Source: Methanosphaerula palustris E1-9c
Lineage (GTDB): Archaea > Halobacteriota > Methanomicrobia > Methanomicrobiales > Methanospirillaceae
Direction of reading: 5' to 3'
Length of the DNA stretch: 64,000 nucleotides
NCBI RefSeq assembly: GCF_000021965.1
Contig: NC_011832.1
Coordinates: forward strand, 372,001-436,000
This document shows, in pieces, positions 800 through 27,659 of this stretch; position 1 is the first letter of the stretch; every line of letters starts with the position of its first letter. The notes under the pieces were generated by a model. The model saw only the letters and a program-made list of their open reading frames with translations. It did not search any database and was not told the DNA's origin. Both the position numbers and the translations under genes were made by a program.

Positions 800-1029
800 G
801 AACAGATCTTTTGCACCATTGCCGGCGACGGTACCTTTTCCGAGAGATCATCTCCTTCGAGGAGCAGATGGACTGGGGTGTGAAAACCCGGTTGATATCC
901 TGCATTACTAAAGCGGAGGATAAACTCGAATATTCACCTCATATTAAGTTCGGAAATGGATTGAAAGAAACACACAAGTGGTTTGCTGAGAATTGGGATG
1001 CTATTGAGATGGGTGTGGAGTTTCCATAA
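800..1029 (+). pseudogene. Sugar-nucleotide epimerase C-terminal relic
   Basis: The frame ending at 1029 finishes with HIKFGNGLKETHKWFAENWD. This resembles the last helix of NAD-dependent sugar epimerase/dehydratases of the SDR family (GL.ET..WF.ENW). The upstream part is not recognisable, and no NAD-binding or YxxxK region is present. It is read as the tail of a deleted epimerase gene joined to the DUF362 relic. The stop overlaps the ATG of the next gene (TAATG), so it may once have been translationally coupled. Confidence 0.45.
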
Positions 1030-1793
1030 TGAAACAATCTTTAAAAAGGGATTATACCTCCGATGAGAAGAAAAGAATGGAGGCAAAATTTTGGAAGGGT
1101 AAGACTGATTATACTGCCCTCCCCTCTAAAGAAAGCGATATCCGATTTAATGACTGGAATACCTTTTTATTGGATTCTGTGTTAAAATCGGTTGAAATTA
1201 ACAATAAAATTATATTAAATGTAGGTGGGGGAAATGGCAATGAGGCAGAATTTTTACTTACTCACGGTGCAAAGGCTGTGGTATTAATAGATATTTCTCC
1301 CGGACAACTGGCAGGTGCCCAAATAAGAATTGAACAACGCGGATTAAAAAATTTGGAACTCGTGCATTGTGATTCAGAGAACCTTGGAATAAAAGAAAAT
1401 TCTTGCGATGTTGGATTAATTTTTATGGCATTACACCATTTTCCGAATCATGAATACGCTGTAAATGAATTGTGTAGGGCATCAAAAAATGTATTAATAA
1501 TCGATATTATGAATTGTGGTTTAACTCAATTATTTAATAAATTTGGCTTTTTTTTAAAAGAGGGTCCCTGTTTAATTAATCGAGTAAAAGAAGACGTGAT
1601 TCAGCAGATCTTTATAAAAAACAATTTTTCTTTTACAATTCATTATTATTTTGTTCCACCCTACTATGGCAATAATAGAATATTAATTGCAGGTATCCGC
1701 AGCGGGGAAAAGATGGTCAATTTTTTAATCTCTAAAAATCGTATTTTTGCAAATTTTTTTGGAAATATCGCAATTATTGAGGGTATTCCATGA
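1029..1793 (+). CDS. Class I SAM-dependent methyltransferase
   Basis: A 254-residue protein with a clear class I SAM-binding motif I (IILNVGGGNGNEAEFL, ~60-75), an acidic residue after strand 2 (VVLIDISPGQL) and a motif IV/post-I stretch, VGLIFMALHHFPN. Substrate is not identifiable; the context (glycosyltransferases on both sides) suggests a sugar or lipid-linked glycan. The gene is AT-rich, unlike the GT at 1-675. Its stop overlaps a short relic frame starting at 1790 (ATGA). Confidence 0.8.
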   Translation: MKQSLKRDYTSDEKKRMEAKFWKGKTDYTALPSKESDIRFNDWNTFLLDSVLKSVEINNKIILNVGGGNGNEAEFLLTHGAKAVVLIDISPGQLAGAQIRIEQRGLKNLELVHCDSENLGIKENSCDVGLIFMALHHFPNHEYAVNELCRASKNVLIIDIMNCGLTQLFNKFGFFLKEGPCLINRVKEDVIQQIFIKNNFSFTIHYYFVPPYYGNNRILIAGIRSGEKMVNFLISKNRIFANFFGNIAIIEGIP

Positions 1794-1903
1794 ATAATGG
1801 GACAATAAAAAAACACAGTGTTTCCACCACAGTGTACGTTCAGAATCTTGACTGGGGCACCATAACAGATACATTTGAATACACAATAAAAGAGGTATGT
1901 TAA
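1790..1903 (+). pseudogene. Glycosyltransferase C-terminal tail relic
   Basis: A 37-codon frame ends in YVQNLDWGTITDTFEYTIKE, which resembles the last residues of the GT at 1-675 (FVEPNDWNTITDSFEESLEL). It lies immediately before the intact DUF362 gene, just as the intact GT lies immediately before the DUF362 relic at 665. It is therefore the remnant of a second GT copy in a duplicated GT-DUF362 unit. Confidence 0.6.
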
Positions 1904-1904
1904 G

Positions 1905-2900
1905 ATGAAAGATTACCTGGCGAGCATAATAAAGGTTTCAAATCTCCACGAAGACATCATCAATAGTCTCGAATTCATCAAATGGAAGGATTCTATTCGT
2001 AATGGTTCCATGGTTTTTATAAAACCAAATTTTACCTATCCATTCTATAAAGAGGGTATCACCACTAACCCCGTGGTCTTGAAAGAGATTCTGGCTATCC
2101 TCAAAGATCGGGCTGGGCGGGTTATTGTTGGAGAATCTAATGGCGGGAATCATTCATTCACTGCGAATCAAGCCTTCAAAGGTCATGGGATGCCCGAAAT
2201 TTGCAAAGAAACCGGTGCTGAACTTGTCAATCTGTCAACACTTCCTTCACGATTTATTGAAGATACGATTCAAGGAAAAAGGGTTAAAGTCCAGGTACCT
2301 GATCTTCTTGTTGACGAAATCGACTGTTTCATCTCAGTTCCCGTTCTCAAAGTGCATGTGATGACTACCATCACTCTGAGCATGAAGAATCTGTGGGGTT
2401 GTTATCCCGATACCATGCGATGCCTGCAACACAAGTATTTGAGCAGGAAATTGACCCTTCTCACAAAGGTGATTAAACCGAAGATCGTTCTGATCGATGG
2501 GACGTATGCCCTCAATGGTCATGGTCCGATGTATGGTGAACCGGTGAAAACAGATCTCCTGATAGCGGCAAACAATCCGGTTGTAGCCGATGCATTTGGT
2601 TCAACGCTTATGGGGATACCGGCCTCAAGAGTTGAGCATATTATGTTTGCAGAGAAGGAAGGACTCGGTACAACAGATCTTGATGCAGTTCAATTCAATG
2701 ATGACTGGAAAAAATATCAGTTGCAATTTCAGGTGAATAAAACCCTGATTGACAGTCTTTCAACGATCCTATTCAATAGCGAGTGCATGGCGAAACTGGT
2801 GATGGATTCCCCCATGAAGCCGATAATCTATGGTGTTGCATCGAAATTGAGAAATAAGAATGAACAGAATGTTGTCGATGAACTTGAAGGGAGAGATTAA
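1905..2900 (+). CDS. DUF362 domain protein
   Basis: A 331-residue protein with the DUF362 layout: an early GSMVFIKPNFTYP (about residues 34-46), a central VIVGESNGGNHSF, a middle FISVPVLKVHVMTTITLSMK, and a late LLIAANNPVVADAFGSTLMG. DUF362 proteins are often linked to Fe-S or redox chemistry, but no ferredoxin-like CxxCxxC cluster is visible here. The function is unknown. In this locus it may modify a glycan precursor. It ends TAATG, overlapping the next gene. Confidence 0.75.
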   Translation: MKDYLASIIKVSNLHEDIINSLEFIKWKDSIRNGSMVFIKPNFTYPFYKEGITTNPVVLKEILAILKDRAGRVIVGESNGGNHSFTANQAFKGHGMPEICKETGAELVNLSTLPSRFIEDTIQGKRVKVQVPDLLVDEIDCFISVPVLKVHVMTTITLSMKNLWGCYPDTMRCLQHKYLSRKLTLLTKVIKPKIVLIDGTYALNGHGPMYGEPVKTDLLIAANNPVVADAFGSTLMGIPASRVEHIMFAEKEGLGTTDLDAVQFNDDWKKYQLQFQVNKTLIDSLSTILFNSECMAKLVMDSPMKPIIYGVASKLRNKNEQNVVDELEGRD

Positions 2901-3670
2901 TGCATTTGTTTGGGTGGGTTTCCTTAAGTAGTCCATTTCAACATAAAATTTCCATCATTTTTAAAAAAATTATTCCTAAATCACTCATATTACCTATAAT
3001 TGAAGGACCCCTTAAAGGGAAAAAGTGGATTGTAAATTCTTCAAATTTAGCATATTATTTAGGCAATTTTGAAAATCGTCAGATGAACATTGTAAAAGAT
3101 CTATTACATAATGGGGATATTTTTTATGACATCGGGGCTAACGTTGGAACTTATACCTTACTCTCCTCGGAAAAAGTAGGGAATCCAGGAATTGTGGTTG
3201 CATTTGAACCATTACCTGCTAATGTAAAAATCCTTAATAAGCATATTCAAATGAACAACTGCACGAATGTCAGGGTGATTGAATGTGCCCTTTCTAATGT
3301 ATCCGGGGTATCCATGTTTTTTGAACATCCTGATAATACGATGGGATCTATATCAAAAAATGGGAATCTGGAAGTCCCCACATTGACCTTGGACTCTGTT
3401 GTTGCTGACGGCATCGCACCACCCCCGGATTTGATTAAAATGGATGTTGAGGGAACTGAATCAATGGTATTATGTGGCGGGTTAGACGTATTGAGAAATT
3501 ATTGTCCCACACTCCTTATCTCCTTACATTCAGATCAACAAAGAGAGGAATGTATTGATCTATTACGGGGTTTAGGATATTCAATTCAACCGATTGACGA
3601 TAGAGATCTCTCTCGAACATCTGACATAATTGCTTGTAAGTCTAAGGAAGGATTAAATTATGAAAAATGA
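2900..3670 (+). CDS. FkbM family methyltransferase
   Basis: A 256-residue FkbM-type SAM methyltransferase. Motif I is [16 protein letters not shown], followed by [18 protein letters not shown] (the acidic ribose-binding residue) and the family signature [15 protein letters not shown]. FkbM enzymes typically O-methylate sugars or polyketides; here a glycan hydroxyl is the likely target. The gene overlaps DUF362 by one base and the next GT2 gene by 11 bases, so co-transcription is likely. Confidence 0.85.
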
Positions 3671-4598
3671 TGGGGTCTATATTTTTGTGGAACCCCCACT
3701 TAATATTCTTCAATGTAAACAAATCGATTTTGAGCATCCCCCTCTCGTATCGTTTGTAATACCTGTCTATAATAGTGAACGCACTATTGAAAAATGTTTA
3801 AAAAGTATCCAAGATCAAGATTATCCCAATAAAGAAATAATTATCGTTGACAATGGATCTTCAGATAACACGCTTTCTATTGTGAAAAAATTTACAGATG
3901 AAATTTTTTTTGATGATGGCACTTTGGGGAGTGTCCGTCAAACGGGTATCGATAATATGCAAGGGCAGATTGCTGGGATTTTCGATAGTGATGTCTATTT
4001 ACCTCATAAAAAATGGCTTTCAAATGCTATATGGTATTTCAATTATTCTGAAGATATTGCAACGATTTGGCCAAAAATGAAAGCACCATTAAATGGACCC
4101 TTGTTTCAAAGATTGTATTTTAATTTGGCATATCTGATTCTTGAGGATAGAATTGACAAGAATCGTGGTATAATGGGTGGTGGAGGTGCGTTAATCAATA
4201 AGAAAGCCATTGATGAAACTGGCGGTTATGATAGAAATGTACATTGGGGGGAGGATTTTGATCTAGCATCAAAATTGAAAAATAAAGGATATAAAATAAT
4301 CTATTTAAAAGACGCGGTATATCATGACACTGATATGGGATTGTCAATTTCAAAATTTATTAAAAAGCAAATCAGGGGGGCTTCGTCATTATCTACCAAT
4401 TCTAAAACAAAAATGAATTTATCTAAAAGAGATATGGTCTATGAGAATTTCTTTCTTGGAACCAAAGGCATGATATTTGGATTACTAAAAGAGAGAGATA
4501 TCTCATGGCTGCTCTTTCCTCTGTTGGTTTTCTTAAGGATGCAAATTTTTCTCTATGTTCATTTATGTAAATTATTAAATGTTCCCCAGGAGAAATAA
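3660..4598 (+). CDS. Family 2 glycosyltransferase (GT-A)
   Basis: A 312-residue GT2 enzyme. The N-terminal nucleotide-binding motif is [20 protein letters not shown] with [12 protein letters not shown], a metal-binding DxD-type [10 protein letters not shown] and an acceptor-site stretch with [20 protein letters not shown] (ED for catalytic-base placement). A hydrophobic segment near the C-terminus ([18 protein letters not shown]) suggests membrane association. The likely role is adding one sugar to a lipid-linked glycan on the cytoplasmic face. Confidence 0.88.
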
Positions 4599-4599
4599 G

Positions 4600-5808
4600 A
4601 TGAAAATACTTCAGATCATCTCCTCTTTCCCACCCGCTTATTCGTATGGGGGGCCCCTTCAGGTTGCATATAATTTATCGAAAAATCTTGTGAAACAAGG
4701 GGATGAAGTTACTGTATATAGCACAGATGTCCTCGATCAAACTCATAGGAACAAAAATGTTGAAAATCCTGGGTTTCTTGATGGGATAAAAATATTCAGG
4801 TTTAAAAATATCAATAATCGACTGGCATCAAAATATCGAATATCCTGTGCTCCACGTATTGCATATGCATTGAATCTCAATATTAAAAATTATGATATTG
4901 TTCATTGTCATGAATATCGCGCATTTGAAGCAATTGTGATGCATCATTATGCAAAAAAATATCATATCCCTTATATTGTTCAGGCTCACGGTGCGGTACT
5001 GCCAGTCTTTGAAAAACAAGGAATAAAAAAAATATATGATATTCTTTGGGGAAACCAAATATTAAGAGATGCCTCAAAATTAATTGCGGTATCAAAAGTT
5101 GAGAAAGACCAGTACTTGAAAATGGGAATGCCGGAAAACAAAATTGTAATTATTCCAAATGGAATTGATGTGTCTGAATATGAAACACTTCCGGAACGAG
5201 GAATATTTCGGAAAAAATATGGAATTGCATCCGATGAAAAAGTCGTTCTCTATTTGGGACGGTTGCATAAAAGAAAAGGAATTGATTTTCTTATTAATAC
5301 TTTTTCAAGTCTTTTGGACTTAAAAAAGGACAATAAACTAATTATTGCAGGTCCGGATGATGGATTTCTCGAGATCCTTATGGAAATTATAAAAAAATTA
5401 AAAATTGGTAAGAATGTTTTGGTTACCGGCTCTCTTTCTAAAGTTGAAAAAATCGAAGCATTCGTTGATGCTGATGTGTTAGTATATCCTGGAATATTGG
5501 AAATTTTTGGGCTGGTACCATTTGAAGCTATAATGTGCGGAACACCGGTTATAGTGACGGACGACTGTGGGTGTGGCGAGGTAATTAAAGAAGCTAAATG
5601 CGGATATTTAGTAAAGTACGGAGATACTGATGATTTGAGAGGAAGAATATTAAATGTCCTTAATGATGACATCCAATCAAACCTGTTCGTGAGGGATGGG
5701 CAAAAATTTATTAAAGATAATTTATCCTGGTCATATCTCATTGAAGTTGTAAAACAAACATATTTGGAATGTATTTCTCAATCAAATGGAGTAAAACATG
5801 AATTATAA
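4600..5808 (+). CDS. Glycosyltransferase family 4 (GT-B)
   Basis: About 402 residues. The ATG at 4600 is chosen over an in-frame ATG 21 bases upstream, because AGGAG lies a few bases before it and it follows the GT2 stop directly. The N-domain has a glycine-rich YGGPLQVAYNLSKNLVKQGD. The C-domain has VVLYLGRLHKRKGIDFLI, the donor site GILEIFGLVPFEAIMCGTPV (E-x7-E) and VVKQT at the end. It is a retaining GT-B enzyme using an NDP-sugar; the donor is unknown. Confidence 0.88.
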   Translation: MKILQIISSFPPAYSYGGPLQVAYNLSKNLVKQGDEVTVYSTDVLDQTHRNKNVENPGFLDGIKIFRFKNINNRLASKYRISCAPRIAYALNLNIKNYDIVHCHEYRAFEAIVMHHYAKKYHIPYIVQAHGAVLPVFEKQGIKKIYDILWGNQILRDASKLIAVSKVEKDQYLKMGMPENKIVIIPNGIDVSEYETLPERGIFRKKYGIASDEKVVLYLGRLHKRKGIDFLINTFSSLLDLKKDNKLIIAGPDDGFLEILMEIIKKLKIGKNVLVTGSLSKVEKIEAFVDADVLVYPGILEIFGLVPFEAIMCGTPVIVTDDCGCGEVIKEAKCGYLVKYGDTDDLRGRILNVLNDDIQSNLFVRDGQKFIKDNLSWSYLIEVVKQTYLECISQSNGVKHEL

Positions 5809-17495: not shown

Positions 17496-17580
17496 CTGTT
17501 AAAAGCCCTCTTCAGTTACAAACTGACTGATAATTTCAGCATAAAACGGGCTAATGAATGGATAAACCGTGATGAAGTCG

Positions 17581-18236
17581 GTAGCGTGCCAAAAGGAATG
17601 TAAAAGTAAAAAGGCTCTGAATTCCACCTAGAATTGCATGAAAGGTGAAACCGGACCATGATACCAATATCATCTATCAAAGATTATATTTCCGACAAAG
17701 ACGAAGGAATGCGCATTCTCATCACCTAGTTTTTGAACAAGGTGATGCAGATCGAAGCCCATCAGCAAGCGGGTGCTAATCTCTATGAGCGAACTGCAAC
17801 AAGAAACTGCCATCGAAACGGTTCTCGATCCCGATCCCTCACAACTCGCTACGGGGATGTTACTCTCACAAAATATCAGTTTCGGGAGAAAACCCTTCAA
17901 GACTCAGATCTTCGGGCGATACGCCCGGATCGAGAAGGCACTAATGAACGCCATCGCCAATCGTATCTATAGGGAGTTTCAACCAGAGAAGTTCAGGAGA
18001 TCGTCGCGCATCCGGGTATGAAACAACTCTTTCCATCCTCGGTTTCACGGATCTCACATGATCTCGACGATCAGGTGAAGGCTTTTCTCAATCGACCGAT
18101 AGAACGATCGATTCCTTACCTTTACGTCGATGCATTGTATTTTAAAGTTCGAAACGGGCCCAGATATATCTCAAAAGTCCCCCTGGTGACAGTTGGAGTT
18201 CGGAAGGATGGATATAGAGAGATCATGAGAGCCCAG
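17581..18236 (+). mobile_element. IS256-type element, 3'-truncated
   Basis: It begins GGTAGCGTGCC, with the same ~75-bp 5' end as at 6756 and 8854, and continues through the transposase start. The similarity to the other copy ends inside the transposase near 18236 (after YREIM), and no right terminal repeat is found before unrelated GC-rich sequence. It is an immobile remnant. Confidence 0.75.
17658..18236 (+). pseudogene. IS256-family transposase 5' part, two in-frame TAG
   Basis: The ATG at 17658 opens a single frame through MRILIT-TAG-FLNKVMQIEAHQQ (TAG at 17727-17729, codon 24) and RQSYL-TAG-GVSTREVQEIVAHP (TAG at 17970-17972, codon 105), then YLYVDALYFKVRNGPR. Apart from these two ambers and the 3' truncation it is intact. 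The ambers are at the same codons as in the copy at 8776 although other positions differ. Confidence 0.8.
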
Positions 18237-18724
18237 ATCCAGTATCAGTGGCTTTCCCGAAGGAGATACGTATGACTATCCCTGGTGTGGGCTATCTCGA
18301 TCTCCTCAGGTGTTCGAACTGGCGTAGGTCCTGAATTCCGAAGGGACCAAAGGAGCCGGCACCGCTGAACCCGGCCAGCGTGACACCCGGCGAGGTCTCC
18401 GGTCTCTCGATCCAGCACCGATGGGATGCCGGCCCCTTCGAGCGCATCGACGACGGTCAGGATCTGCCGGCCAGGCCGGCCCCCCGGATCCCGTCCGCAA
18501 TACCACCACCGTTACCCTTAAGAGTGCCGGCCGGATTTGTGATTTTGTCAAACTGATCCGAACATGTTTTGCCGGTTTTTTGGAAGATCGGTCTCGCCGT
18601 CCCGGACGAGATCCTCGCTTCTTTTCCCCCGGAAACCGGCAATTTTTTGGTGAAAATATTTTGGTCCAGAAAGGACATTCTCCCGCTGAACTCAGGTATA
18701 TGCAAAAGTGCGGGTAATAGTTGA
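18237..18724. other. Gene-free GC-rich stretch
   Basis: No start-to-stop gene with a recognisable product is visible. Minus-strand frames such as ILTVVDALEGAGIPSVLDRE and, after a shift, GVTLAGFSGAGSFGPFG look gene-like but are broken, so 18300-18470 may be debris of an unidentified gene. Confidence 0.4.
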
Positions 18725-18746
18725 ATTGCGAAATAAGGTTCGCAAT
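18725..18746. promoter_or_regulatory. Inverted repeat upstream of the PrimPol block
   Basis: ATTGCGAA and TTCGCAAT form a perfect 8-bp inverted repeat with a 6-bp spacer, directly before AAGGTG and the ATG at 18759. It is a candidate operator or replication-control site for the element. No regulator gene is recognised next to it. Confidence 0.45.
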
Positions 18747-18758
18747 AAGGTGAAAAAA

Positions 18759-19100
18759 ATGAAAAAAATTGTCTATTCATCAGGCAGACCCGAAGAGATC
18801 CCAGAGCAGCCGGTCAGGGCCGTCGCCCCCGGCTTGAACGGAACGGTCAGGCTCTATCATGCCGACCGGGCGGTACACCCCGATCACGAGGCATCAGGCA
18901 ATCTGGTGTTCGTGCACAATACAGCAGCTGTCATTGATGCTGGCGGGACGGTCGTCCTCTCACGGTCAGGTCTGGATGGAAGTCCGGCCGGGATGACGAT
19001 CCGTCTCCTATCGTGTTCATTATATATTGTTCTCAGATCTGCTCTCGCTGCAGACGCACGGGATCAGACCCGCTCGCGATACCGGCCGACGAGGGGGTGA
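18759..19100 (+). CDS. Hypothetical protein of the PrimPol block
   Basis: 113 residues starting MKKIVYSSGRPEEIPEQPVR, with AAGGTG seven bases before the ATG. The part up to ~90 residues is hydrophilic with a beta-rich look (GTVRLYHADR, GNLVFVHNTAAVIDAGGTVV). The last ~25 residues are Arg-rich and low-complexity, and the frame may have shifted there. No family is recognised. Base composition matches the two genes downstream, suggesting one transferred block. Confidence 0.4.
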   Translation: MKKIVYSSGRPEEIPEQPVRAVAPGLNGTVRLYHADRAVHPDHEASGNLVFVHNTAAVIDAGGTVVLSRSGLDGSPAGMTIRLLSCSLYIVLRSALAADARDQTRSRYRPTRG

Positions 19101-19109
19101 GGTAGCGAG

Positions 19110-19499
19110 ATGTCAGCAAAAACAGTCGTTGATCCTGGTGCAGAGCCGGTCTATGCATACCTCAGACGAAGTGCCATCGAACATGAAGCAGTCTCTCGTC
19201 TGCGGGAACTCGGGTACAGGGTGATCCGGACCGACGGCCGCTACCCGGGCGTGAACCTGATCGCGATGAAGGGCGACCATTTCAGGTTCGTCTGCATCAG
19301 GCGACGAAAGATGCCGGCCGGCTCCCTCGCTGAGGTTGCCGCGACGTATGCAGAGGATCAGTATGAACTCCGGCGGTACATCTCGCCGATCGTCGCCGCC
19401 GATCTCTGGATCTGGTCCATGGCGGACCAGTGGCGGTACTTCGCCGTCTACCCCGGTGGAATTCAGGAGATAGGTGAGAACGATGAACACCGGCTCTGA
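19110..19499 (+). CDS. Restriction-endonuclease-fold-like small protein, degenerate active site
   Basis: 129 residues. The pattern IEHEAVSRLRELGYRVIRTD, then PGVNLIAMKGDHFRFVCIRRRK, and later ELRRYISP and DLWIWSMADQWRYFAVYPGG resembles small archaeal PD-(D/E)XK (VRR/Hjc-like) proteins. In those proteins the core reads G-x-D-L-I-A ... (E/Q)-x-K. Here the metal-binding Asp is Asn (GVNLIA) and the E-x-K position reads C-I-R, so catalysis is doubtful. The fold call is inference from the pattern. The gene overlaps the PrimPol gene by 17 bases, suggesting a functional pairing. Confidence 0.55.
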   Translation: MSAKTVVDPGAEPVYAYLRRSAIEHEAVSRLRELGYRVIRTDGRYPGVNLIAMKGDHFRFVCIRRRKMPAGSLAEVAATYAEDQYELRRYISPIVAADLWIWSMADQWRYFAVYPGGIQEIGENDEHRL

Positions 19500-22400
19500 G
19501 ATCCGGCGGGGTCTCGAGGTGCTGGTCGCTCCCGGTCAGGTCTTCGAGGTCCGGAGCTGGACGGGCGATCGCATCGCCTCTGGTTACTTCGACGACCTCG
19601 ATACCGCCGGGAAGGCGATCGAAGCACTCGACGCGGCGAACCCAGACGGGATCTACCTGACCCCGAACCCGGTGCTGCCCGACCTCCTGGCGAGGCGGGC
19701 GAACCGGATCAAGGGACCGCTCGCCAAGAAGGACTCCTCGACGAGCGATGGCGATATCCTGAGCCGGCGCTGGTTCCTGATCGACATCGACCCGGCCCGG
19801 CCATCCGGGGTCTCCTCATCCGATGAGGAACATCAGGCAGCGCTGGACCGGGCGACTGAGATCGCGGCAGCCCTGGGCGAGAGGGGCTGGCCAGCCCCGG
19901 TCGCCGGCGATTCCGGCAACGGTGCTCACCTCCTGTACCGGGTGGACCTCCCGAACGACGAGCAGGTGACGGCGCTGATCAGGGCCGCCCTGGTCGGACT
20001 CGACGGTCTCTTCTCCGATGCGAGGGCCTCCGTCGATACAGCCGTCTTCAATGCGAGCCGGATCTGGAAAGTCTACGGAACCGTCGCAAGAAAGGGTGAC
20101 AACACCAGATCCCGACCACACCGACGGAGCCGGCTGCTGTCGATGCCGGACCCGATCGCGATCGTGACACGGGAGCAGCTCGCAGCCCTGGCGATCACCG
20201 ATCCAGGAGGAGACACAGCAGCGCCGGCACCCTCGAACAGGGGGACCAGCCGCCAGGTTGGCGAGAAGATCGACCTGGCCGGCTGGCTCCGGGACCACGA
20301 CCTCGGTGTCATCGACCGCCGGCCCTACCGGGGCGGCGATCTCTACCGACTCGACGCCTGTCCGTTCTCATCAGCCCACACCGACGGGGCGTTTGCGATC
20401 CAGTTCGCGAGCGGGGCAATCCATGCCGGCTGCCATCACGCCTCGTGCGGCGGCGGGTCGCAGCGGTGGCCCGAACTCCGGGAGATGTACGAGAAGCCGA
20501 AGGTCTCCGCCATAACCCCTGAAGAGAAGGGGGCGGCCTACAGAAAGAAGAAGGCTACAGCGAGAGAGGCGGTGGCCGGCCGGGATGACGCAGCACCGGT
20601 TGAGACCGATGCAGCAGATGAAGCGGTCCTGGCCGAGGCCCGGCAGATCCTGGAGACCGGCGACCCGCTCGCGTACATGGTCGACACGTTCAACCTTGAG
20701 CACGTCGGTGATCGGGACCTGGCTCACTGCCTGGCTCTCTCTCTTGCGTCCCGCCTGGTCGCAACATCCGAAGGGCTGCACGTCATGACGACCGGTGAGT
20801 CGGGCAAGGGGAAGAGCGACGGCTACCGGGTGATGCTCAGGCAGCTCCCCGACGCGTGGAAGATCAAGGGCTCGTTCTCCGACAAATCCCTCTATTACAT
20901 GGGTGAGTCCCTGAAGCCCCAGACGGTCTTTCTCATCGACGACAAGGACCTCTCAGACTCCCTTCAGGAAGTGCTCAAGGAAGCCACTACTGATTTCAGA
21001 AAACCGATCGAACATCGCACCGTCACGACAGATAGAAAACCACAGATTTGTTACATCCCGGAGCGCTGCATCTGGTGGATTGCCAGGGTCGAAGGAGTCG
21101 GCGACGACCAGGTCAAAAACCGGATGCTCATGCCATGGGTCGACGACTCCGATGAACAGGATCGGGCTGTCCTGGCCGGCATTCTTGAGCGTCTGGCCCG
21201 GGACGAAGACGAACCGATCGGTGAGCTGCACGAGATCGCAGTCTGTAAGGCACTGTGGACGATCCTTCAGAGCGTCGGACTGGTCGACGTCAACCTCTCC
21301 CGGTTTGCGCTCAGGATCCATTTCTCATCTGCCCGGAACCGGCGCAACTCCCGGATGTTGACTGACATGATCCAGTCCGCAGCCATGCTCAGATATTTCC
21401 AGCGGGACCGCCGGGACCTGCAGGACGGCATAACCCGGATATACGCCACCGAGGACGACTTCAGGACCGCGGCGGCCATCTTCACGGCCCTGCATACGGT
21501 ATCTGGGTCGCAGGACGCGAAACTGACCCGGCGGGAGGATGATGTTCTGCGGTTGCTCGCGGCGACCGGGGAGACGGAGTTTACCGTACAGAAGATCATG
21601 AACCTGACGAAACTCTCGTACGATTCGGTCCGCAGAATGCTGGTCGGATACGGAGACCGGGGCATCCATCGCCCTGGACTCCTGGAGAAGTGCCCGGCGA
21701 TTGCAAAGATGGATACGTCGGTCAGCATACGGGATGAGGACGACGACAGAACGGTCCGGACGATCCATCGGCGCGAGACCACGTTTTCCTTCGACCTGCA
21801 GGTCTACCGGCGCTGGCAGACCGGCGGTCAGGTGGTCTGGCTGGACGAGCCCGGAGACCGGGACCGGGATCCCGATCCGCGGTCGAACACTTGTCAGCAG
21901 CATCAGCAGCATATACGCAGCATAAACGCAGTTTCAACTGCGACCATAAAAACCGACAATCCGGCCCTTTCTGCGGAAACGGATGATAAATCATTATGCG
22001 TACAAAGAGAAGGATCGTTAAACGCAGCAGAAATGAAGAGCACGCACCCCGCACCCTCACCGGAAGGAAGGGTGTGTGCGGGTGTGTGTGTTCCTGAAAA
22101 AAACTGCGACCTAACATCAAATACTGGTATCCGCAACCTGATTCAAAAACAGGGCCGGCAATCACCTCCAAAAGTCAGCAGCAAAAACTGCAAAGATGCT
22201 GCGACCACCTGCAAAGACTGCGGAGATGCTGCGGTCACCAGTATGGCAGGCGGTGAACCGGCACGGCCGGCCCCACCACTGACCCTCGCCCAGGTGAACC
22301 CGGGTGACTACTCCCTGATCCCGGGCGGTCCCCTGATCGAGCCGTGCCCGGTCTGCGGTGGCCGGGTGGTCCACTACACCGAACGCTACCAGGCCCGGAA

Positions 22401-22659
22401 GGCCCGGGGTCCAAAGGAGAAGAGCCGGAATATCTGCCGGGGCTGCTATAACCGGGCCCGGGCCTGTGAGCAGGCCGCCATCCAGGTCCTGCCGGGTGTG
22501 ATCCCGCTGGACGAGGTTGAGTCGGTCGATGCTGGCCTCTTCGGCCGGTGCTCAGTCTGCGGGCTCCAGGCGGCAACATACAACCACGCCGGCAGCGGGA
22601 CCGGGATCTGCTCGGTCTGTTATGAGAAACTGGTGAGAGAGCAGGTGGATATTCGATAA
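19483..22659 (+). CDS. PrimPol primase/SF3-like helicase fusion with zinc ribbons
   Basis: 1058 residues. The ATG at 19483 is preferred to a GTG nine bases earlier on AGGAGA/GGTGAG spacing. N-terminal AEP primase signatures are LIDIDPARP (metal-binding DxD, ~100-106), GDSGNGAHLL (~142-151) and NASRIWKVYGTVARKG (~190-205). A Cys/His cluster lies at ~293-322 (ACPF..., GCHHASCGG). A P-loop TGESGKGKSD (~437-446) and Walker B VFLIDDKD (~482-489) follow, then a winged-helix-like region and two CxxC zinc ribbons near the end. Such proteins initiate replication of archaeal plasmids and viruses. Confidence 0.8.
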   Translation: MNTGSEIRRGLEVLVAPGQVFEVRSWTGDRIASGYFDDLDTAGKAIEALDAANPDGIYLTPNPVLPDLLARRANRIKGPLAKKDSSTSDGDILSRRWFLIDIDPARPSGVSSSDEEHQAALDRATEIAAALGERGWPAPVAGDSGNGAHLLYRVDLPNDEQVTALIRAALVGLDGLFSDARASVDTAVFNASRIWKVYGTVARKGDNTRSRPHRRSRLLSMPDPIAIVTREQLAALAITDPGGDTAAPAPSNRGTSRQVGEKIDLAGWLRDHDLGVIDRRPYRGGDLYRLDACPFSSAHTDGAFAIQFASGAIHAGCHHASCGGGSQRWPELREMYEKPKVSAITPEEKGAAYRKKKATAREAVAGRDDAAPVETDAADEAVLAEARQILETGDPLAYMVDTFNLEHVGDRDLAHCLALSLASRLVATSEGLHVMTTGESGKGKSDGYRVMLRQLPDAWKIKGSFSDKSLYYMGESLKPQTVFLIDDKDLSDSLQEVLKEATTDFRKPIEHRTVTTDRKPQICYIPERCIWWIARVEGVGDDQVKNRMLMPWVDDSDEQDRAVLAGILERLARDEDEPIGELHEIAVCKALWTILQSVGLVDVNLSRFALRIHFSSARNRRNSRMLTDMIQSAAMLRYFQRDRRDLQDGITRIYATEDDFRTAAAIFTALHTVSGSQDAKLTRREDDVLRLLAATGETEFTVQKIMNLTKLSYDSVRRMLVGYGDRGIHRPGLLEKCPAIAKMDTSVSIRDEDDDRTVRTIHRRETTFSFDLQVYRRWQTGGQVVWLDEPGDRDRDPDPRSNTCQQHQQHIRSINAVSTATIKTDNPALSAETDDKSLCVQREGSLNAAEMKSTHPAPSPEGRVCAGVCVPEKNCDLTSNTGIRNLIQKQGRQSPPKVSSKNCKDAATTCKDCGDAAVTSMAGGEPARPAPPLTLAQVNPGDYSLIPGGPLIEPCPVCGGRVVHYTERYQARKARGPKEKSRNICRGCYNRARACEQAAIQVLPGVIPLDEVESVDAGLFGRCSVCGLQAATYNHAGSGTGICSVCYEKLVREQVDIR

Positions 22660-22701
22660 GATCTCCATTACCGGCACTGAACCTTTCGGCGATCGGTGCC
22701 A

Positions 22702-22815
22702 GAGGGGACGCTGACCCTCTCGGTGCCGGCGGGCCAGATGCCAGAGAAGTCCGGAGCCGGCGCGATAGTCGGGGTGCTGGGAGTCATCGCGATGGTCACC
22801 TGCCGGCGACGGTGA
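22702..22815 (+). pseudogene. C-terminal fragment of the secreted-protein family
   Basis: The 37-codon frame EGTLTLSVPAG...EKSGAGAIVGVLG...CRRR-stop matches the last residues of the protein at 26979-27650 (EGTLTISVLA...QKSGAGAIVGVLG...CRRR), including the C-terminal membrane anchor. It lies directly after the PrimPol gene, so the block may have inserted into or next to a copy of this gene. Confidence 0.7.
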
Positions 22816-22929
22816 AGCAGATCGGAGAGAGTCCACGGACGATCGGACGTTATCACTCCCTGGTATCCGGGGATATCTGGACACACCGTAAGACAGAAAG
22901 AATTTTAATGTCTCATATTAAGATGTAGA

Positions 22930-22983: not shown

Positions 22984-23832
22984 ATGGGAACAGAGATCGT
23001 CGCGGTATTGACGGGAGATTTGGTAAAATCTCAAACGTATTTGACTGAGGCGCTCACGTCGACCCTCGCTGATCTCAGATCTGGGTTTAAGACGTTTAAA
23101 GAAATAATGGGCGAAGCTCATAATCAGAGTAATTTTGATCTGATGATCTCCCGTGGCGATAGTTTTCAGGGACTTCTTCTACAGCCTGAGATCGCTCTCA
23201 AAGCAGCGATATATATTCGTGCGGATTTGATCCGTGATAGTAAAGCAAAATTTCGTCGTGATGCGAGAATTGCAATCGGGATTGGCACGGTTGAAGATAT
23301 GGATGCTTCTCTGGGAGAGGCGTTTATCAAATCCGGTGTCTGGTTAGATGAATTAAAAGATATGAAACAAAATCTTATCATCAGGACCTCATTTGGAGAT
23401 GAAATAAACAGAGAATTCGATACTGAATGCGCATTAACTGATGGAATAATTCAGAAATGGACATCTGGCCAGGCTGAGGCCGTAAAGGAGTATGTAATCA
23501 GCGAAAATCAAGAGGAGGTTGCAAAGAAATTAGGCATTTCTCAGGCCGCAGTTTCGTTAAGACTGAATGGTAGTAATTATTCGTTACTACAAAAATTCTT
23601 TTCACGATATCAAGAGATCATCTCTCGTGAAATCCAGAAACAAACGGAAATTACAACCAATAACAGATCAGAAAATCTGGATCTTGCTGCGAAGCGAATA
23701 GCAGAAGTCATGTGGAACCTTGGTTATCGTCATTTATCCGATGCCGAATTAAATTCCCTTTCAAAAAACGATGCATTATCCCGGAAAGTTGAAGCCAGAC
23801 TTAAACAATATCAGGGATCGGCACAGAAATAG
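22984..23832 (+). CDS. SatD-family protein with HTH
   Basis: 282 residues from the ATG at 22984 (AAGGTT eight bases before; a TTG start three codons earlier is less likely). The N-terminal domain shows the SatD pattern AVLTGDLVKSQ and later DLMISRGDSFQGLLLQPEI with AIGIGTVE. The segment ENQEEVAKKLGISQAAVSLR (~170-190) is a helix-turn-helix. SatD proteins are thought to couple nucleotide-cyclase-like folds to regulation, but the mechanism is not established. The DUF3307-like membrane protein follows 12 bases downstream. AT-rich, unlike the PrimPol gene. Confidence 0.7.
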   Translation: MGTEIVAVLTGDLVKSQTYLTEALTSTLADLRSGFKTFKEIMGEAHNQSNFDLMISRGDSFQGLLLQPEIALKAAIYIRADLIRDSKAKFRRDARIAIGIGTVEDMDASLGEAFIKSGVWLDELKDMKQNLIIRTSFGDEINREFDTECALTDGIIQKWTSGQAEAVKEYVISENQEEVAKKLGISQAAVSLRLNGSNYSLLQKFFSRYQEIISREIQKQTEITTNNRSENLDLAAKRIAEVMWNLGYRHLSDAELNSLSKNDALSRKVEARLKQYQGSAQK

Positions 23833-23844
23833 TGATGGTGAGAG

Positions 23845-24228
23845 ATGTTGTACCAGTATCTTCTCTATCTAATTTTATTGGTGGGGTATATCATCATACT
23901 GTGGCCAAGTGGTTATGCAATACGTCGATTTTTAGAAAATTTTGAATTTGAGAATAAATTTAAAAAAGATGAGACCGGGCTCAATTCTTCACAGAAACAT
24001 GCAGGAACCTACATCGGTTATTTCGAACGTTTTTTAATACTCATCTTTATGTTAACGGATCAGTTTGTAGCTATTGGCTTTCTGATCACTGCCAAATCGA
24101 TATTCAGATTTGAAAAAAGTCCACGAGGCATCGTTGAATATTTTTTGATGGGGACGCTTATGAGTTATGCGATAGCGATTTCAGTTGGAGAAATTATGCA
24201 ATATCTCATTATTATGATCCAATCCTGA
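23845..24228 (+). CDS. DUF3307-like membrane protein, SatD partner
   Basis: 127 residues with three to four hydrophobic segments (YLLYLILLVGYIIILWP, ERFLILIFMLTDQFVAIGFL, YFLMGTLMSYAIAISVGEI). The stretch AGTYIGYFERFLILIFMLTD followed by FLITAKSIFRFE matches the C-terminal part of DUF3307 proteins, which often sit next to SatD genes. It probably forms a membrane module with the SatD-like protein. The function is unknown. Confidence 0.65.
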   Translation: MLYQYLLYLILLVGYIIILWPSGYAIRRFLENFEFENKFKKDETGLNSSQKHAGTYIGYFERFLILIFMLTDQFVAIGFLITAKSIFRFEKSPRGIVEYFLMGTLMSYAIAISVGEIMQYLIIMIQS

Positions 24229-26978: not shown

Positions 26979-27650
26979 ATGCAGCGTCTTCTCCTCATCC
27001 TGCTCGCCCTCTGTATCCTCACTGGCACGGCCGGCGCCATCACCGTCGAGATCCAGCCCGACCGGGTCGTCGACGGGGACCAGGTCACCGTCCACCTGCA
27101 CGACCTGCCGAACGGCACCGTCTTCTCCCTCAAGATGGACGGAGAGTTCGCGACCACGCCCGGGGGCGCTTTCTCGTTCTCCACCAATCAGCTCTCGATG
27201 CCGTTCACCCTCGACAAGGGGACGGTCACGGCCAACCTTGAGAACACCGTGACGAACACGCTCGTCGTCCGGAGGGGCGAGACCCAGGCGAAGGTCGGGG
27301 GGGATTCGAAGAACGGGCTCTTCTCGACCGTACAGAACGTCTCGATCACGGCCGGCACCTACGACGAGATCGCGGTCAGCGGCACTGTCCTCCCCGATGC
27401 GACCACCGTCCGCTCCAGCCTGATCCTGACCGGGGTTAAACAGGGGGCCTCAGACGCGACGATCTCATTTACCGTTCATGGAGTGACTGAGGGGACCCTG
27501 ACCATCTCGGTGCTCGCGAACACGGCAAAGGTCTACGGCAAGGAGATCGCGCTCGGTCCACTGCAGACCCCGACGCAGAAGTCCGGGGCTGGTGCGATCG
27601 TTGGAGTCCTGGGGGTCGTCATCGCGATGGTCGCATGCCGGCGACGGTGA
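26979..27650 (+). CDS. Secreted/anchored surface protein (intact family member)
   Basis: 223 residues: an N-terminal signal peptide (MQRLLLILLALCILTGTAGA), two beta-rich segments (ITVEIQPDRVVDGDQVTVHL, VQNVSITAGTYDEIAVSGTV), a Pro/Thr linker (LQTPTQKSG) and a C-terminal anchor AGAIVGVLGVVIAMVACRRR. It is exposed at the cell surface and anchored by the C-terminal helix. The function is unknown. At least four broken relatives lie in this window. Its 3' end faces hicB2 nine bases away. Confidence 0.75.
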   Translation: MQRLLLILLALCILTGTAGAITVEIQPDRVVDGDQVTVHLHDLPNGTVFSLKMDGEFATTPGGAFSFSTNQLSMPFTLDKGTVTANLENTVTNTLVVRRGETQAKVGGDSKNGLFSTVQNVSITAGTYDEIAVSGTVLPDATTVRSSLILTGVKQGASDATISFTVHGVTEGTLTISVLANTAKVYGKEIALGPLQTPTQKSGAGAIVGVLGVVIAMVACRRR

Positions 27651-27659
27651 AGCGGAACC

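Follow-up and report, generated by a model that had tools for sequence, protein, structure and literature searches.

A predicted Holliday-junction-resolvase-fold protein without the catalytic glutamate, encoded beside a primase-like/MCM-like replication gene in Methanosphaerula palustris

Makarova et al. in 2014 described a group of integrated elements, named here after arCOG07809, from Mpal_2033, a Methanosphaerula palustris protein that combines a primase, a helicase, a helix-turn-helix and a Zn-finger and that comes with a PD-DEXK partner, integrases and integration sites (PMC4158269, excerpts). In these excerpts, arCOG09441 is listed with arCOG07809 under the name "HJR family endonuclease", and a satellite virus is suggested for the arCOG07809 elements. 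This was the only paper in the literature searched in which the names arCOG07809 and arCOG09441 were found. We analyzed a block of this kind in a stretch of 64,000 nucleotides from M. palustris E1-9c (NC_011832.1, positions 372,001 to 436,000), which is called the window and in which coordinates are numbered from its first letter. In this block, gene B (19110-19499, + strand) encodes a protein of 129 amino acids with a predicted Hjc fold that lacks the catalytic Glu and Lys and is apparently an inactivated Holliday-junction-resolvase homologue, and gene C (19483-22659, + strand; ATG at 19483, alternative GTG start at 19474) encodes a replication protein of 1058 amino acids. The element and the pairing of B with C are already known; the family-wide loss of the catalytic Glu and the position-conserved arrays of B paralogues are added here. 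On balance, we favor the reading that the block is the remnant of a replication module and that B is a non-nuclease protein of the Hjc fold that probably aids C at the origin of the element.

The domain order of C agrees with that of Mpal_2033 as given in the excerpts of PMC4158269, and Mpal_2033 is probably one of the B–C copies in this genome. Compared to that description, in which the partner is an endonuclease and the helicase belongs to superfamily I or is DnaA-like, the ATPase was modeled here as MCM-like, none of the B members that we examined had the catalytic Glu, and the B paralogues formed ordered arrays. Other described proteins resemble parts of the block. The AHJR-like domain of PAB2104 (COG1395) is a resolvase-family domain without an active site that is thought to retain nucleic acid binding (PMC1189080, excerpts); however, it is a C-terminal domain that stands beside an active-looking copy in one protein, whereas B is free-standing and tied to a primase-helicase. 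Fusions of a primase domain with an MCM-like helicase, of which C may be a further case, are known from mobile elements in BcMCM of Bacillus cereus (PMC4538821) and in MCM-bearing PrimQH members (PMC5862659), and PrimQH also has a winged helix, as C appears to have. The excerpted text of these two papers mentions no Hjc-fold partner, which gene C has. The open-access literature searched showed neither an inactivated Hjc-like protein as partner of this primase nor position-conserved B arrays or an MCM-like assignment for C, which is weak evidence of absence.

The window B protein gave no family match in Pfam, PHROGs or PADLOC, and its rows in NCBIfam, YraN among them, were weak. A profile of 18 B homologues matched archaeal Hjc (1gef) with an E value of 9.6e-6, the UPF0102 protein 3fov with 0.0012 and other Hjc entries with 0.0022 to 0.029, and the alignment to 1gef spanned the N-terminal half of Hjc, which carries the active site. 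A preliminary description, made from the letters of this stretch, had noticed a PD-(D/E)XK-like pattern in B and proposed a structure prediction; the AlphaFold2 model, built on an alignment of 52 sequences (mean pLDDT 85.3; order of elements alpha-beta-beta-beta-alpha-beta-beta), bore the pattern out. The best Foldseek rows for this model were Hjc (E 2.5e-5), and the 27 PDB chains with E of 0.001 or below comprised 23 Hjc or Hje chains and four SPARDA nuclease chains. VIA-align superposed the model on 1gef over 105 residues with Z 12.4 and a root-mean-square deviation (rmsd) of 3.2 and on several other Hjc/Hje entries with Z 10-11; beyond Hjc, the SPARDA nuclease domain (Z 9.5), RecU and splicing endonuclease share the general fold and are conceivable alternatives. 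A PD-(D/E)XK fold closest to Hjc is well supported for B by these model comparisons. An origin of B from bacterial YraN (UPF0102) was set aside, as the YraN rows were weak (E 0.012 and 0.045) and 3fov lay below Hjc (Z 7.4).

The active site of Hjc includes an Asp that binds the metal and an E-x-K motif. B resembles archaeal Hjc and Hje (PF01870; 1gef, 2wcw, 1ob8) in its predicted fold and N-terminal sequence pattern; unlike them, it has lost the Glu of E-x-K, has mostly His or Asn for the metal Asp and often stands in front of a replication gene. In the window protein, Asn49 occupies the position of the metal Asp and Cys62-Ile-Arg64 that of E-x-K in the alignment to 1gef, as the preliminary description had read them. 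The family was compared in an alignment of 52 sequences, consisting of the window protein and 51 of 56 B sequences, with the other five inspected separately. At the position of the catalytic Glu, these 52 have Arg (15), Lys (15), Gln (7), His (4), Ser (3), Cys (2), Thr (2), Val (2) or Leu (2), and none has Glu or Asp; at the position of the metal Asp, they have His (25), Asp (18), Asn (8) or Ser (1). The five sequences outside the alignment and 20 B matches from fetched stretches were likewise without the catalytic Glu. Its loss in all B members examined is well supported. As a control, the Pfam Hjc family (PF01870) was searched for in 61 genomes, with 32 matches listed at 30 loci. All 20 of the non-B loci keep E-x-K, including the host's own Hjc-family protein, which is encoded near genome position 678904 and in which VECK is intact; these loci were scored by motif pattern, several of them share a genome, and other PD-(D/E)XK proteins may be among them. 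The ten B-family loci matched PF01870 at or about the cut-off and have Gln (8), Ala (1) or Cys (1) at the Glu position.

The same residues also bear on a different explanation, in which B is still a nuclease that works through altered residues and resolves or nicks the replication intermediates of the element. Of the 52 sequences, 38 retain the first Glu and 18 the metal Asp, which makes a non-canonical active site conceivable, and eight of the ten Pfam-matching B-family loci (L281, L282, L289, L293, L298, L301, L303 and L308) keep Glu, Asp and Lys, with Gln replacing the Glu of E-x-K. Both results count against a non-nuclease B, and a table of the 2014 paper labels arCOG09441 an endonuclease (PMC4158269, excerpts). 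With the first Glu, Asp and Lys all in place in those eight, this subgroup is a single substitution away from an intact site, and it may represent an early stage of inactivation. On the other hand, a nuclease would have to do without the E-x-K Glu in every aligned sequence, with Arg or Lys in its place in 30, and without the metal Asp in 34 of the 52, including the window protein, while the non-B Hjc-family loci of the same genomes retain E-x-K. We regard a persisting nuclease activity of B as unlikely; that B binds DNA without cleaving it is likely.

The linkage of B to C was followed in related genomes. A scan of the genome collection with an alignment of C gave 283 relatives, and the counts rest on the best 80 of these, which occur in Methanoregula, Methanolinea, Methanoculleus, Methanospirillum, Methanofollis and similar archaea. 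Together with the window and two sister copies from its own genome, they make up a reduced set of 83 loci that leaves out L059-L070 (12 loci); the wider 95-locus set holds repeats (e.g., L064/L076 and L061/L071), and the reduced set is therefore quoted. At least 1.5 kb of upstream sequence was present at 70 of the 83 loci, which could thus be tested for an upstream B. A B gene lay within 1.5 kb upstream of C and on the same strand at 45 of the 70, on the opposite strand at none, and within 1.5 kb downstream of C at none of the 83. The linkage of B to the primase-helicase gene in related genomes is well supported. The overlap of 17 bases between B and C that the preliminary description had reported is exact when C is read from its ATG, and the overlap is also 17 bases long at both sister copies, L051 and L052.

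B genes also occur in tandem. Two or three stand together at ten loci of the 83-locus set, and at L063 (7470-9490), outside this set, five divergent B paralogues with 21-36% mutual identity stand in a row upstream of C. In a tree of B, read without support values, array members clustered by position across elements; for example, members of the L076 and L072 arrays are 63-66% identical at the same position and 23-31% between positions. This clustering by position makes the duplications of B look old and kept.

Other results of the survey tell against a fixed partnership. No B could be detected at 25 of the 70 testable loci, where gene A lies upstream in 21, gene A2 in 21 and neither in two, and among 20 stretches retrieved around homologues of B, 17 contained no C, although most stretches had been picked for having no C within 1.5 kb and several are cut by contig ends. 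B is not obligatory beside C. The preliminary description had named homologues with an intact active site and no PrimPol neighbour as contrary evidence; homologues without the neighbour do exist, namely in these 17 stretches, but the site was intact in none, the Glu being absent in 20 of 20. A B that is optional beside C and also found without it would suit a role outside replication, as a junction-binding protector or regulator that, for example, shields the element from the host resolvase or regulates the operon, and the VECK-bearing protein shows that the host has an Hjc-family protein of its own. However, a B near C was placed upstream and in the same orientation as C, never on the opposite strand, and this placement and the overlap in three copies point to joint use with C; a role outside replication seems to us fairly unlikely. 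Genes A and A2 were also considered as degenerate forms of B, which was rejected (profile comparison probabilities of 1.8 and 3.1%).

Gene C appears to encode, from the N- to the C-terminus, an AEP-like primase, a Zn motif, an MCM-like AAA+ ATPase, a winged helix and zinc ribbons, the last two names resting on how we read the alignment and some weak rows in Pfam. Acidic, His and Cys motifs were invariant in 13 aligned C proteins. In the primase-like domain (residues 1-240; 19483-20202, + strand), D101/D103, H149 and D185 were invariant in 40 sequences, and we take these residues to be the AEP motifs (acidic pair, His and third Asp). The two zinc-ribbon-like stretches (residues 955-1046; 22345-22620, + strand) have cysteines that are invariant in 13 sequences. 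A model of residues 1-800 reached a mean pLDDT of 84.0 and a pTM of 0.51, the latter leaving the domain packing uncertain, and its PDB fold rows covered residues 363-785 only. For the ATPase (residues 380-680; 20620-21522, + strand; Walker A at residues 438-445), all 50 rows shown were MCM helicases with Z 20.8-22.8, such as 9e2z (Z 22.8, rmsd 5.2, 298 residues) and 7pfo (Z 22.7, rmsd 3.9, 288 residues). None of the 13 C members scanned had a Pfam MCM row, and the commonest rows were AAA_22 in 12 (best E 0.00071) and AAA_16 in 9; the ATPase is therefore labeled MCM-like. At the N-terminus, LigD_Prim-Pol appeared weakly (E 0.19) in 2 of 13, and the viral structure neighbours of C include named primases, with low TM-scores across several domains.

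The ATPase region matched 45 of 294 genomes from the phylum; 35 of these belong to the same order, and the other 10, with 26-35% identity, to other orders. The N-terminal part of C was found in IMG/VR viral contigs (best 80 of 151 relatives), with no match beyond residue 445, and in a protein of a Bacteroides phage that carries the annotation DNA-directed DNA polymerase. A first viral scan with the single C sequence gave no match, and for full-length C there was one partial match in the plasmid collection and two in the phage collection. A viral source for full-length C was rejected, as the best 80 IMG/VR matches stop by residue 445.

The M. palustris genome, searched as one contig of 2,922,917 bases, holds three intact B–C pairs, in the window and at L051 and L052. 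Compared to the window, the B proteins of the two sister copies are 81% and 79% identical and the C proteins 66% and 64%. DNA similarity starts near 18250 (L051) or 18505 (L052), is absent across about 21530-22280 and stops at the stop codon of C, where the conserved block ends. A linker segment of C at about 21790-22250, considered as a possible independent repeat, has four other copies in the genome with 73-85% identity, some within decayed C copies. The two intact sister C genes have no DNA match to the linker (21801-22240), which suggests recombination between elements. Ratios of nonsynonymous to synonymous substitution (Ka/Ks) among the three copies were 0.28-0.38 for B and 0.27-0.29 for C, which indicates purifying selection on both genes.

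To the left of B lies gene A of the window (18759-19100, + strand; 113 amino acids, start set by aligning the sister copies), which is a weak relative of the small gene A upstream in related elements and is probably degraded. A leader common to the sister copies, delimited by DNA comparison among the copies (18250-18700, - strand), probably represents the 5' end, now degraded, of a divergent gene, which at L051 has an open frame of 494 amino acids. The degraded look of gene A, the lack of an integrase or attachment site and the presence of gene C fragments at several further genome positions would all fit the possibility that the window block is decaying debris, whose open reading frames persist without a present function. 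Against this, C is open over its whole length with its motifs intact, the two sister copies are also open and the Ka/Ks ratios are low, though the selection may predate the insertion. We consider present-day debris a possible but somewhat unlikely account of the block.

Some relatives of the block lie in elements that can be traced to their ends. An integrase match (PF00589 in two members scanned) was present upstream of C in 23 of 83 loci, with 24 copies on the same strand and one on the opposite strand, and an Orc1/Cdc6-like ATPase near C in 14 of 83 (Cdc6 domains in two members scanned). A tRNA scan covered 30 loci, 24 of them integrase-bearing; in 15 of these 24, a tRNA ended 62-78 bp before the integrase match (tRNA type unassigned at L107). 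The 3' end of the tRNA recurred at a distance in all three genomes tested, as direct repeats of 19 bp in G010 (E 4.9e-5; element of 30.1 kb), 16 bp in G012 (E 0.003; 22.8 kb) and 19 bp in G018 (E 5.3e-5; 41.8 kb). Relatives of the block thus lie in tRNA-integrated elements with a tyrosine integrase, three of which are delimited. Both elements whose genes were read, G010 and G012, carry defence genes, their cargo including a type III restriction-modification pair, an enzyme of the Eco29kI type, a GmrSD-type protein and a SIR2 protein of the Dsr1 type; no capsid gene was noticed by eye in their open reading frame lists, in which no dedicated search was made.

Two observations weaken the extension of this picture to every copy. 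Flanks of at least 9 kb on the upstream side and 7 kb on the downstream side of C were available at 21 loci. An integrase was present at 6 of these, an Orc1/Cdc6 gene at 3 and either at 8, so that most have neither and numerous copies could be remnants or depend on different genes. In addition, the window copy lacks an integrase, a tRNA and end repeats: neither tRNA genes nor an integrase match was found in the 64-kb window, and no integrase was found at the three copies of this genome in the stretches examined, with three weaker integrase matches lying elsewhere in the genome. The window copy is a remnant of an integrative element without an integrase or attachment site. Attachment-site repeats, which the preliminary description had proposed to look for at the block ends, were rejected, since the longest direct repeat shared by the two ends is 10 bp, within the range of shuffled sequences.

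Several features around the block had been remarked on earlier. The palindrome at 18725-18746, a perfect 8-bp inverted repeat (ATTGCGAA-6 nt-TTCGCAAT), is present as described; however, it is without conservation in the sister copies and was rejected as a conserved origin or operator. The window holds 22 such perfect 8-bp hairpins with loops of 3-10, compared to 4-10 in five mononucleotide shuffles, and the palindrome is therefore not specific to the block. The block is GC-rich (59-68% G+C) relative to its immediate flanks (40-43%), as had been stated, but most of the window between 30 and 64 kb has 52-67%, so that the AT-rich flanks are the unusual part. To the right, beyond the conserved block, the 3' fragment of a secreted-protein gene (22690-22821, + strand) was confirmed: 22745-22821 is 82.5% identical to 27577-27656. 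Neither the palindrome nor the edges of the block lend weight to the interpretation of B.

Immediately to the left of the block lies a fragment of a Mutator-type transposase (17580-18238; PF00872 at 18018-18275), of which an inverted copy with 92% identity is found at 8854-8196. Farther to the right, 22987-24228 encodes a protein of 281 amino acids, in which weak Pfam rows hint at a helix-turn-helix, and after it a small membrane protein, a gene pair that we take to resemble the SatD/DUF3307 type. At L051, PbeA- and PbeC-type defence genes (PADLOC; 878-5196) lie about 4-8 kb downstream of the sister block. A conserved protein of about 167 amino acids and of unknown function occurs at L052 (3296-3799), L059 (18942-19445) and L255 (1560-2063), the last of which holds part of the G010 element.

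In the mechanism that we propose, the block, one of the three intact copies that this genome holds, would be the remnant replication module of a Methanomicrobiales integrative element, and C would be a fused primase-like and MCM-like replication protein. B, which overlaps C and is probably translationally coupled to it, would be an Hjc-fold protein that no longer acts as a nuclease; most likely it would bind DNA with branches, cruciforms or forks and so help C to recognize, open or load at the origin of the element. The earlier suggestion of a non-cleaving partner of the initiator is the likeliest account of B, whose inactivity, DNA binding and cooperation with C are inferred. In a more speculative and rather doubtful extension, a family of dead Holliday-junction resolvases would serve as non-cleaving readers of DNA structure for the primase-MCM protein, and the arrays of 2-5 in some elements would assemble into a hetero-oligomeric clamp, which would sit on a cruciform or fork at the origin and recruit or load the helicase.

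Should B bind junctions without cutting them, a nuclease fold of DNA repair would have been reused as an accessory to a mobile replication protein, and the published label "endonuclease" would be wrong for the whole family. C would add a primase–MCM-like fusion that is common in methanogen chromosomes and at least sometimes found alongside defence genes. The position-conserved tandem arrays would then lend themselves to studying how nuclease folds turn into pure binding modules.

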